Shown: one piece after another, positions 5,222-23,780 of the stretch
How the letters are laid out: every line of letters starts with the position of its first letter
Position numbering within the stretch: position 1 is the stretch's first letter
NCBI RefSeq assembly: GCF_000196895.1
Contig: NC_014297.1
Coordinates: 2,339,770-2,403,769, forward strand
Length of the DNA stretch: 64,000 nucleotides
Direction of reading: 5' to 3'
From: Halalkalicoccus jeotgali B3
GTDB taxonomy: Archaea; Halobacteriota; Halobacteria; Halobacteriales; Halalkalicoccaceae
The notes under the pieces: model-generated
Database searches by the model: none
What the model saw: the letters and a program-made list of their open reading frames with translations, nothing else
What the model was told of the DNA's origin: nothing
Translations under genes and position numbers: made by a program

Positions 5222-6367
5222 CTACTCGACGTAGTCGATGTCCTGTAGCTGACCGGTACTTTGCTCCTGTTGGCCCTCGTCCTCGCGGCCGTAGATCTGC
5301 GGGGAGTCGACCCCGGTAACGACGATCATGGTGCGCATCGCGCCGTCGAGTTCCTCGTCGACGGAGGTGCCCCAGATGATGCGGGCGTCGGGATCGATCC
5401 GCTCGTAGATCTCCTCGACGACGCCTTCTGCCTCCTCGATACTCATGTCGTTGCCACCGGTGACGTTGACCAGCGCGGAGTTCGCCCCGGAGATGTCGAC
5501 GTCAAGCAGCGGAGAGCGAAGTGCCGACTTGACCGAGTCCTTCGCCTTCGATTCCGAATCGCTCTCGCCGAGTCCGATCATGGCGACCCCGCCTTTCTCC
5601 ATGACGGTGCGAACGTCCGCGAAGTCGAGGTTCACTAATCCGGGTTTGGTGATCAGCTCGGTAATGCCCTTGACCGAGCGCATGAGCACCTCGTCTGCGA
5701 CCTTGAACGCCTGGCGCACCGGCAGTTTACCGACGGCGTCGAGCAGGCGGTCGTTCGGCACGACGATCACGGTGTCGGCGACGTCTCGCAGCCGTTCGAG
5801 GCCGGCCTCGGCGTTGGTGCGTCGGACCTCGCCCTCGGCCGTGAACGGCGTCGTGACGATGGCGATGGTGAGCGCGCCCGACTCGCGGGCGGCTTTGGCG
5901 ACGACGGGGGCCGAACCGGTGCCGGTCCCGCCGCCCAGACCCGCGGTCACGAAGACCATGTCCGAGCCCTGAATCGCGTCGTTGACCTCGTCCTGGCTCT
6001 CGAGGGCGGCCTCCTCGCCCACTTGGGGGAGTGACCCCGCGCCCCGGCCGCGCGTTTTCTGTTCGCCAAGCAGGATCTTGGTGTCGGCCTCGATCTCCAC
6101 GAGGTGCTGGACGTCCGTGTTGGCGGCGACCAGCTTCGCGCCGTGGATGCCCTCCTCTTCCATCCGGTCGACCGTGTTGCCGCCCGCACCGCCACAGCCG
6201 ACCACCGTTATATTGGTCTGGAGGTCCTCCAGTACGTCCCGAAGCTCCTCGTCGGTCATCTGGCCCGACTGGCTGACCTCGGGGGCGACGCCGTCCTCGG
6301 CGTCCTCTCGTGTCGCCGCCTGCTCCGCCTCGTCGCTCTCGACGGCGTCCTGAATGATCGAGTCCAT
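5222..6367 (-). CDS. ftsZ1: Cell division protein FtsZ1
   Basis: A 381-residue tubulin-like GTPase. An acidic N-terminal extension begins [10 protein letters not shown]. The nucleotide fold has [10 protein letters not shown] (about 57-65), the signature GGGTGTGS (145-152) and the T7 loop NLDFADV (246-252); the tail ends DIDYVE. It matches FtsZ1 rather than FtsZ2 by its N-terminus and AANTDVQHL. In Haloferax, FtsZ1 helps place and stabilise the Z ring. I chose the ATG at 6367 because the family start is MDSI; an in-frame ATG at 6394 would add nine residues. Confidence 0.95.
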
Positions 6368-6401: not shown

Positions 6402-6436
6402 ATTGTTCCCGTTTACGTCCGACGAGCGTCCGACTC

Positions 6437-21444: not shown

Positions 21445-22590
21445 TCAGCGAATGACGTCCAGCCCGTTGTTTTTCTCGCGTTCGTCCCGCCCGCCGTCGC
21501 TCTGAGCGCCGGTGTCGACCTGCTGGCCGTTGATCGAGGCACGCGAGCGGTCGGCCTGTTTCTGTGTGCTCGGCCCGAGGATCTGGGCGCTCTGGACGCC
21601 CGTCATGATGGCCATCACCCGCACCTTGCCCTTGTACTCCTCCTGAATGCGCGCGCCCCAGATGACGTTCGCGCTGGCCTCGAGGCGCTCGGTGATGTTG
21701 TCGGCGATGCCTTCGGCCTCCTTCAGGGTGAGGTCCGGGCCACCGGTGATGTGGACCAGCCCACCCGAAGCGCCACGATAGTCGACGTCCAGAAGCGGGT
21801 GGTTCATCGCGTCCCGGACCACCTCGTCGGTCTTGTTCTTGTCCTGGGTCTCGCCGACGAGCATCACCGCGACGCCGCCCTGGTTCATGATCGCGGTCAT
21901 GTCGGCATAATCGAGGTTGATCAGGGAGGGCTGGGTGATCGTCTCGGCGATCCCCTTGACCGTCTCGGCGATGATCTGGTCCATCACCGAAAAGGCCTTT
22001 CCGATCGGGAGGTTCGGGACGTAATCGAGCAGGCGGTTGTTGTCGAGCACGATGATCGAGTCGGCCTCGTTGCGCAACTTCTCGAGGCCTTCCTCGGCTT
22101 TTACTGTGCGTGCACGCTCGACGTTAAAGGGCGTCGAGACCATGCCCACGACGATGGCGCCCTGGCTCTTTGCGATCTTCGAGACGACGGGCGCAGCGCC
22201 GGTTCCGGTGCCGCCGCCCATACCGGCGGTAACGAACACGAGGTCGGCGTCGCCCAGTACTTCCTCGACGGTGCCCGTAGCCATCTCGGTGGCGCGTTCG
22301 CCCATCTCGGGGTCGCCACCGGCACCGAGCCCCTGCGTGAGGGACTTGCCCACGAGGATCTTGGTGTCGGCCTCGATCATCTGGAGGTGCTGTTTGTCGG
22401 TGTTGATCGCGACCGTCTCGGCACCCTCGACGCCGATGTTGTAGAGGCGGTTGACGGTGTTGTTGCCGGCACCGCCACAGCCGACGATCACGATACGAGG
22501 GTCGCCGAAATCATCGGCCTCGCCGAGTTCGCGCTTTCGTTCCTGCTCTGCCTCGGCGTTATCGAGCGCGTCGCGGACGATGTCCTGCAT
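21445..22590 (-). CDS. ftsZ2: Cell division protein FtsZ2
   Basis: A 381-residue tubulin-like GTPase beginning [16 protein letters not shown]. Motifs are [13 protein letters not shown] (37-49), the signature GGGTGTGA (125-132), NLDYADMT in the T7 loop and the conserved tail NGLDVIR. These identify FtsZ2, which drives constriction in Haloferax. I chose ATG 22590, two bases after the cdrS stop; the frame is open to 22815, but that overlaps cdrS and its sequence is not FtsZ-like. Confidence 0.97.
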
Positions 22591-22592
22591 CG

Positions 22593-22772
22593 TTACACCT
22601 TTGCCCACGTGCGGTCGGAGCCTTGGGTGTCCTGGCTTACACCCCGTTCGTCGAGCATCTCCCGTACCGCGGCGCGAATCGCCTCGCTGCGGTTGGGGAA
22701 CTGCCCCGTTTCGACCATCCGTTCGACCTCCTCGATCTGTTGTTCGGGAATTCGTAGTGTCACACGTTCCAT
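22593..22772 (-). CDS. cdrS: Ribbon-helix-helix regulator CdrS
   Basis: A 59-residue protein. [19 protein letters not shown] is the ribbon strand and first helix, and [19 protein letters not shown] is the second helix. CdrS is known from Halobacterium and Haloferax as a short transcription regulator cotranscribed with ftsZ2 that sets division gene expression. The start ATG 22772 is chosen because the ribbon must begin here; an extension to 22880 is not family-like. The stop is two bases before ftsZ2. Confidence 0.93.
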
Positions 22773-22788: not shown

Positions 22789-22825
22789 GTAAGACGAGGA
22801 CCGTTTGGCGGCCATAGTGTCTTAC
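22789..22825. promoter_or_regulatory. Two half-sites GTAAGAC/GTCTTAC close to the cdrS start
   Basis: GTAAGAC at 22789-22795 and GTCTTAC at 22819-22825 lie within the cdrS-ftsZ2 leader, on opposite strands and 30 bases apart. They repeat the half-site of the palindrome further upstream. They are candidate operators for CdrS or CdrL (inference). Confidence 0.55.
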
Positions 22826-22871
22826 ACTGTAGCCAAACTCGCCCCATCCGTGGCGAGAAGGTGGCTAGCGC

Positions 22872-22920
22872 GTAAGACACGTCTTACATGGCCGTATCGT
22901 GCTCCCGTGAACTATTAAAA
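22872..22920 (-). promoter_or_regulatory. cdrS-ftsZ2 promoter: TATA box plus 16-base palindrome
   Basis: GTAAGAC-AC-GTCTTAC (22872-22887) is a near-perfect palindrome with two 7-base arms around a 2-base centre. On the minus strand a TATA-like TTTTAATA (22913-22920) precedes it, predicting transcription start near 22890, so the palindrome would cover the first transcribed bases. The resulting leader to the cdrS ATG is about 115 bases. Confidence 0.65.
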
Positions 22921-22938
22921 CTACCGGCCGGTGTACGA

Positions 22939-23433
22939 CTACGGATCGAGGACATCGGCGGCCGGTGTCCGACGGCCGCAGCTCGGACAGAACGCCCAGT
23001 CGGTCCGCAGTTCGACTCCACACTCGCATGAAGCGGGGTCAGCGGCCTTCTCGCCACAGTTCGGACAGTAGACGTGATCGGCGTCGACGAGTTCACCACA
23101 CTGCACACAGTGGACGTCCGGGGGACGCTCGGCCGCATCGGATCCGTGCGTTTGCGGCGTTTGCGCCGACTCTCCATCGGAACGGGGACGGTCGTCCTCG
23201 ACCGTCACAGTGACGTTTACGCCCGGAGCGGACTGCTCGTCGAGACGGTCCGTGATCCGGGAGTCGATCCGATCGGTGATGAGCGCATCGAGCGAATCCG
23301 ACGCCGTCGGTTCGGCGGCGGGGGACTCGAGGTACGCGCGAAGCGCTTTGCGCATGACCTCGCTCTTCGAGGCGTCCATGGCCTCGATGCGTGCGACGAG
23401 GTCGTCGTCCGCGCGAAACGTGATCTTGCTCAT
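22939..23433 (-). CDS. cdrL: Ribbon-helix-helix/zinc-ribbon regulator CdrL
   Basis: A 164-residue protein. Residues 1-36 form a ribbon-helix-helix (SKITFRADDDLVARIEAMD, SKSEVMRKALRAYL). A variable acidic linker follows, then two zinc ribbons with cysteines at 109, 112, 123, 126, 136, 138, 149 and 152. This matches CdrL, the longer partner encoded upstream of cdrS in haloarchaea and reported to control cdrS-ftsZ2. The 166-base gap to cdrS holds the palindrome described separately. Confidence 0.88.
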   Translation of the reverse strand: MSKITFRADDDLVARIEAMDASKSEVMRKALRAYLESPAAEPTASDSLDALITDRIDSRITDRLDEQSAPGVNVTVTVEDDRPRSDGESAQTPQTHGSDAAERPPDVHCVQCGELVDADHVYCPNCGEKAADPASCECGVELRTDWAFCPSCGRRTPAADVLDP

Positions 23434-23570: not shown

Positions 23571-23644
23571 CCGCTCTTAGCTCAGCCTGGTAGAGCAGCC
23601 GACTGTAGATCGGCTTGTCCCCCGTTCGAATCGGGGAGAGCGGA
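23571..23644 (+). tRNA. tRNA-Tyr (GUA)
   Basis: The 74-base cloverleaf is complete: acceptor CCGCTCT pairs with AGAGCGG, anticodon stem GCCGA/TCGGC (23598-23602, 23610-23614) encloses loop CTGTAGA with anticodon GTA at 23605-23607, and T arm CCCCG-TTCGAAT-CGGGG follows. The discriminator is A and no CCA is encoded. The C1:G72 pair is the archaeal tRNA-Tyr identity element. No intron. Confidence 0.96.
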
Positions 23645-23780
23645 CTCGGATTTTCTCCGCGCCCACCTGCGAGAGCGACCGCCTCGCCAGCGGCGCGCCC
23701 GATGACGCCATCCCCGAGCTCGACGGCCGAAATCCCTCATCGGAGAGAACAGTAAATTGATAAGTCGTTTATCTCGTAAC

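Follow-up and report, generated by a model that had tools for sequence, protein, structure and literature searches.

A conserved single-copy palindrome as candidate operator of the cdrS-ftsZ2 division operon in haloarchaea

The comparative analysis of the cdrS-ftsZ2 promoter, carried out in a window of 64 kb (the whole stretch of DNA that was analysed, 64,000 nucleotides of the Halalkalicoccus jeotgali B3 genome) and in other archaeal genomes, has revealed a palindrome (P) at the predicted transcription start that is strongly supported, from its conservation, uniqueness and position, as a real conserved control site and the putative operator of this operon. The persistence of the palindrome in species that lack CdrL suggests that CdrS is likely to read the operator and that the division switch is probably self-controlling. 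The explanation favoured here, with a confidence a little better than even, is that P would be an inherited autoregulatory operator of the CdrS type that occludes the start, CdrL being a further reader in most haloarchaea.

Operator sites and their conservation

The promoter lies between cdrL and cdrS, the first gene of the operon (Table 1). The ribbon-helix-helix (RHH) family RHH_1 was found above the Pfam cut-off in both CdrS (E 1.1e-9) and CdrL (E 3.1e-4), which places two regulators of the CopG/Arc/MetJ class at the locus; Pfam also assigned a double zinc ribbon to CdrL and FtsZ domains to FtsZ2. The earlier note on this DNA had described the palindrome GTAAGAC-AC-GTCTTAC at the predicted start, two further exact half-sites and a TATA box, and the sequences and positions of all of them were confirmed. 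Its claim that half-sites are unusually dense in this region also holds, as four of the six copies of the GTAAGAC 7-mer in the 64-kb window fall within 99 bp, and no more than four 7-mers of the window are found in four or more non-overlapping copies within 100 bp. A fifth heptad missed by that note, U2, is located exactly 52 bp from P1, and the window carries all five heptads, with U2 degenerate. In archaea, the distance from the TATA centre to the transcription start is about 26 bp, and on this basis P would occupy about +3 to +20. The exact palindrome is single-copy in the 3.7-Mb genome, with one match at 0 mismatches and the next best at 2 mismatches.

Table 1. Features of the window discussed in the text, with positions counted from its first letter.
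Feature	Positions	Strand	Description
P, core palindrome	22872-22887	-	Heptads P1 (22881-22887) and P2 (22872-22878), over the predicted start, at about +3 to +18
D1, third exact heptad	22819-22825	-	In the 5' leader; GTAAGAC on the mRNA strand (GTCTTAC on the + strand), distance to the P1 start 62 bp
D2, fourth exact heptad	22789-22795	-	GTCTTAC on the mRNA strand (GTAAGAC on the + strand); closely followed by AGGGGAA, the ribosome-binding site
U2, fifth heptad	22933-22939	-	Degenerate, GTCGTAC; upstream of the TATA box, touches the end of cdrL
TATA box of cdrS-ftsZ2	22913-22920	-	TTTTAATA (TATTAAAA on the + strand); consensus TTTTATA in 74 sequences
M	22826-22871	-	Leader segment from P2 to D1, hairpin-forming potential; structure kept, sequence variable
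D loop	22796-22818	-	Segment from D1 to D2; hairpin potential weaker than in M
Structured leader	22796-22871	-	Structure conserved more than sequence; candidate cis-regulatory RNA
cdrS	22593-22772	-	59-aa RHH regulator (RHH_1) with which the operon begins
ftsZ2	21445-22590	-	Division tubulin homologue, starts 2 nt past cdrS
cdrL	22939-23433	-	N-terminal RHH domain, C-terminal double zinc ribbon; directly upstream of cdrS
tRNA-Tyr	23571-23645	+	Upstream of cdrL
ftsZ1	~5222-6367	-	
GTCNGAC pair	6417-6434	-	GTCGGAC-GCTC-GTCGGAC upstream of the ftsZ1 TATA box; probable CdrS site

The genome search and cross-haloarchaeal alignment that the earlier note had put forward as a check bore out the conservation of the palindrome. 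When 243 genomes of the haloarchaeal order were searched for GTAAGAC-N(1-8)-GTCTTAC, the palindrome was found in 228, including 203 of the 205 good genomes, with one copy per good genome (sole exception G052, with two), and the reversed pattern used as control gave almost always zero. Outside the order, it appeared in one of about 164 genomes of a phylum-wide sample. Wherever the locus was inspected, every match that could be placed was upstream of cdrS. The two good genomes negative for the exact pattern (G064 and G068, both CdrL-positive) contain the degenerate forms GTGAGAC-GGTC-GTCTTAC and GTAAGAC-GGT-GTATGAC.

The anatomy of the site was established with 75 non-redundant cdrS upstream regions, of which 74 could be aligned at P. 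Both P1 (CGTAAGAC) and P2 (GTCTTACA) are near-invariant in these 74 sequences; in P1, only one of the seven bases varies at all, in a single sequence. The TATA consensus TTTTATA is located at -32 to -26 relative to P1. At the U2 offset, 52 bp before P1, GTCTTAC is exact in 26 sequences and present with one mismatch in 17, covering most families, in which the variants GTCTTAC, GTCATAC, GTTTTAC and GTCGTAC (the form in the window) occur. D1 is exact in 49/75 sequences, 62-68 bp past P1, and D2 in 63/75, just before the ribosome-binding site; they are lost independently of each other and without compensating changes. No strict 11-bp phase with P was observed for U, D1 or D2, which counts against the CdrS explanation set out below.

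A 4-bp spacer separates the heptads of P in 132 of 150 sequences, and 7 have 5 bp. Both named Haloferax species in the set (L088, L111) present the canonical site. In most haloarchaea the two heptads are thus paired with an 11-bp centre spacing, an arrangement of repeated, inverted boxes like that of RHH operators. Spacers of 2-3 bp, which shift the two heptads of P off the one-turn register, are almost confined to the family of the window (L005-L012, L035, L036), the window itself having 2 bp.

CdrL and CdrS as readers of the operator

In Halobacterium salinarum, CdrL ChIP-seq yielded a single reproducible site in the whole genome, located upstream of cdrS-ftsZ2 (PMC7439475). CdrL has been stated to be encoded in all Halobacteria; the ChIP study reports its absence from methanogen-side relatives, and also that a cdrL deletion mutant carried second-site mutations and that its analysis was taken no further. 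Conservation, uniqueness and position strongly support the proposal of the earlier note that the palindrome serves as operator of the division switch, and the Halobacterium ChIP data support CdrL as one of its readers; CdrL as the sole cause of site retention is not supported.

An operator read only by CdrL, which would repress cdrS-ftsZ2 from over the start and be replaced by another RHH protein where it is absent, is consistent with that lone ChIP site, with a palindrome that is equally single in each genome and with the near-invariance of the CdrL RHH strand SKITFRAD. The cdrS promoter is, in addition, unreported by CdrS ChIP (PMC8406309), and both the palindrome and, according to the CdrL study (PMC7439475), CdrL are confined to the haloarchaeal order. 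This explanation is nevertheless considered unlikely because P stays intact without CdrL. The CdrL profile search, which scored 14 candidates per genome and was complemented by the local neighbourhood, detected CdrL in 196 of the 205 good genomes, and the nine negative ones (G012, G021, G034, G045, G046, G100, G103, G190 and G226, from families f4, f5, f11 and f13) each keep exactly one palindrome. Separate single-sequence searches of G012, G034 and G045 did not find CdrL either. In the eight inspected loci of CdrL-negative genomes, no CdrL reading frame was present upstream of cdrS, and exact P and exact D2 were kept in all eight. The presence of sites does not follow that of CdrL in the opposite direction either, since the two genomes with only degenerate forms are CdrL-positive.

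A sister family with small genomes (f2) also presents CGTAAGAC, GTCNTAC and an exact D2 (GTCTTAC) upstream of cdrS, and no CdrL was found in its genomes, which are incomplete. Together with the phased arrays of sister heptads in the cdrS leaders of methanogen-side archaea, where CdrL is reportedly absent, the nine CdrL-less genomes indicate that CdrL is not the sole reason for site retention.

The CdrL-less haloarchaeal loci and genomes are L028, L031, L229-L234 and G100. The tRNA-Tyr gene is upstream of cdrS in seven of the eight inspected CdrL-less loci, which points to a gain or loss of cdrL in the interval from tRNA-Tyr to cdrS. Two other possibilities were discarded: autoregulation of cdrL, as a half-site is present in only 2/131 cdrL upstream regions, and loss of D1 as a marker of CdrL loss, which is confounded by phylogeny.

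For CdrS, ChIP-seq in Haloferax volcanii gave 18 sites that share a symmetric motif; ftsZ1, at -50, is one of them and the cdrS promoter is not, and the protein used bore an N-terminal FLAG (PMC8406309). The lack of a CdrS peak at the cdrS promoter is a negative result and speaks most strongly against CdrS as reader; it could possibly be explained by competition with CdrL or by the position of the FLAG, which adjoins the DNA-contacting recognition strand of CdrS (residues 3-7).

The CdrS site could be re-derived at ftsZ1, where GTCNGAC-N4-GTCNGAC is exact in 15 of 22 haloarchaeal promoters and has one mismatch in 5 more, compared with 1/440 in the shuffled control. The spacer of these pairs is always 4 bp, and they are placed at -46 to -52.5 from the predicted start, compared with the published -50 (PMC8406309). 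The occurrence in 20/22 promoters and the match to the ChIP position identify GTCNGAC pairs as the CdrS site with fair confidence. GTAAGAC itself was rejected as the CdrS site at ftsZ1, being exact within 200 bp in just 2/22 promoters and off the motif position. The host genome contains 18 GTCNGAC pairs, with a mild preference for the 4-bp spacer and uninformative downstream genes, and the pair upstream of its ftsZ1 TATA box is a probable CdrS site.

Phased sites at cdrS itself, without CdrL, were observed in methanogen-side archaea (loci L235-L259, final 130 bp before cdrS), in which 17 non-redundant leaders contain GTCNGAC heptads spaced in multiples of 11 bp. Heptad pairs at lags of 11, 22, 33, 44 and 55 bp numbered 17, 26, 18, 8 and 15, versus about 0.02 expected for each, an effect too large to be explained by the array having been first spotted and then scored in one and the same sequence set. 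P has the 7+4+7 geometry and the inner arms GAC-N4-GTC of the ftsZ1 site and differs from it in the outer arm (GTA versus GTC). Against CdrS as reader, one arm of the haloarchaeal heptad has a third position unlike that of GTCNGAC, although the recognition strand of CdrS is unchanged, and no GTCNGAC pair was found upstream of cdrS in the 75 haloarchaeal sequences. Judged from these patterns in the DNA, CdrS would be likelier than CdrL as the original reader of the operator.

A wider reading that joins these observations can be proposed only tentatively. An 11-bp autoregulatory array, with CdrS dimers aligned on the heptads across the transcription start of cdrS, would be common to methanogen-side archaea and haloarchaea, one arm would have changed from GTC to GTA in haloarchaea, and CdrL would have joined there as second reader of this operator. 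On the same tentative footing, one code may have been split in two, with GTCNGAC at ftsZ1 and other CdrS targets and GTAAGAC at the cdrS operon.

Leader hairpins and proposed mechanism

The half-sites can also pair with each other in the transcript (P1-P2, P2-D1, D1-D2, P1-D2), and a structured 5' leader that controls how well the cdrS-ftsZ2 mRNA is translated or how stable it is could be the primary cause of the repeats. The leader segments do have strong hairpin potential: the mean z against dinucleotide shuffles was -1.98 for M (74 sequences; control 0.01; p ~6e-17) and -1.12 for the D1-D2 segment (63 sequences). D2 adjoins the ribosome-binding site, and in Hbt. salinarum the level and the ribosome occupancy of the cdrS-ftsZ2 mRNA diverge (PMC8303175). 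As the main cause of the repeats, RNA pairing was rejected and is held to be quite improbable, because the heptad letters are invariant or lost singly, with no double change, D1 and D2 decay independently, the U heptads are upstream of the promoter and beyond the transcript, and the ancestral arrays are heptads fixed in both sequence and phase.

The hairpins may form a separate, additional layer, and they are real candidates in their own right. Some compensatory change does occur between the half-sites: in the family of the window, 7 of 23 leader stem pairs show two-sided changes, the stems of Halorubrum being mostly invariant. No Rfam family matches the leader. A structured leader could match the split between mRNA and ribosome occupancy, a claim separate from that of the operator. 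A non-RHH haloarchaeal factor binding P as a general or stress-specific regulator is the least probable alternative, for although the sequence does not name its binder and a position over +1 would suit any repressor, P has one copy per genome, located at an operon that encodes an RHH protein, has the 7+4+7 geometry also seen at ftsZ1 where CdrS was mapped by ChIP, and belongs to a promoter that CdrL is known to bind (PMC7439475).

In the favoured mechanism, that of CdrS autoregulation, the operator would consist of 7-bp heptads, GTAAGAC and its reverse, with a core pair one helical turn apart (7+4+7 bp) that in the family of the window is shortened to 7+2+7, extra heptads being placed upstream of the TATA box and in the leader. 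One RHH dimer would bind each heptad and neighbouring dimers would cooperate. CdrS would most likely be the reader behind the conservation of the operator, through autoregulation, CdrL an additional reader of the same operator in most haloarchaea, and the haloarchaeal heptad would derive from the ancestral CdrS site GTCNGAC. A regulator bound over about +3 to +20 would prevent initiation and so put the dose of CdrS and FtsZ2 under negative feedback, and the repression also suggested by the earlier note would suit the position of P over the start site. Upstream of the TATA box of ftsZ1, CdrS would activate.

Comparison with known systems

An operator that is present once per genome and has a defined heptad code bears on how archaea control the amount of their FtsZ proteins. 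It would make the CdrS/CdrL division circuit testable by point mutation in Haloferax or Halobacterium, and it predicts negative autoregulation of cdrS-ftsZ2 and allows CdrS targets to be predicted from sequence. The operator is phased like bacterial RHH operators and may be traced from methanogen-side archaea to haloarchaea. The results challenge the presence of CdrL in all Halobacteria and the assumption that CdrL is the only regulator at this promoter.

RHH operators and autoregulation as kinds, the binding of CdrL at cdrS-ftsZ2 and a CdrS motif were already published. In the literature searched, which left most subscription journals and preprints outside, no sequence for the cdrS-ftsZ2 operator was found; new here are this sequence, its conservation as one copy per genome, its retention where CdrL is lacking, and the methanogen-side arrays with their 11-bp phase. 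The CdrL site of Halobacterium salinarum (Darnell 2020, PMC7439475) is at the same promoter and, like the palindrome, single in the genome, and the present analysis gives the sequence of the operator, its geometry and its independence of CdrL. The motif of the 18 CdrS ChIP sites of Haloferax volcanii, ftsZ1 among them (Liao 2021, PMC8406309), is symmetric and similar in length. At ftsZ1, the site re-derived here has the two-heptad geometry of P and differs in its arms (GTC/GTC instead of GTA/GTC) and in its location upstream of the TATA box, an activator position, instead of over the start.

A sequence search for close RHH structures gave weak matches only (CopG/Arc/MetJ antidotes and NikR). 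The operators of RHH repressors (Arc, MetJ boxes, omega heptads, CopG) consist of short pseudo-symmetric boxes that recur at intervals of roughly a helical turn or shorter, with autoregulation over the promoter. The cdrS operator resembles them in its short, repeated, pseudo-symmetric boxes over a promoter and, presumably, in autoregulation. It differs from them in its specific heptad, its 11-bp period and its archaeal TATA/TFB promoter, and in having two regulators, CdrS and CdrL, on one division operon.
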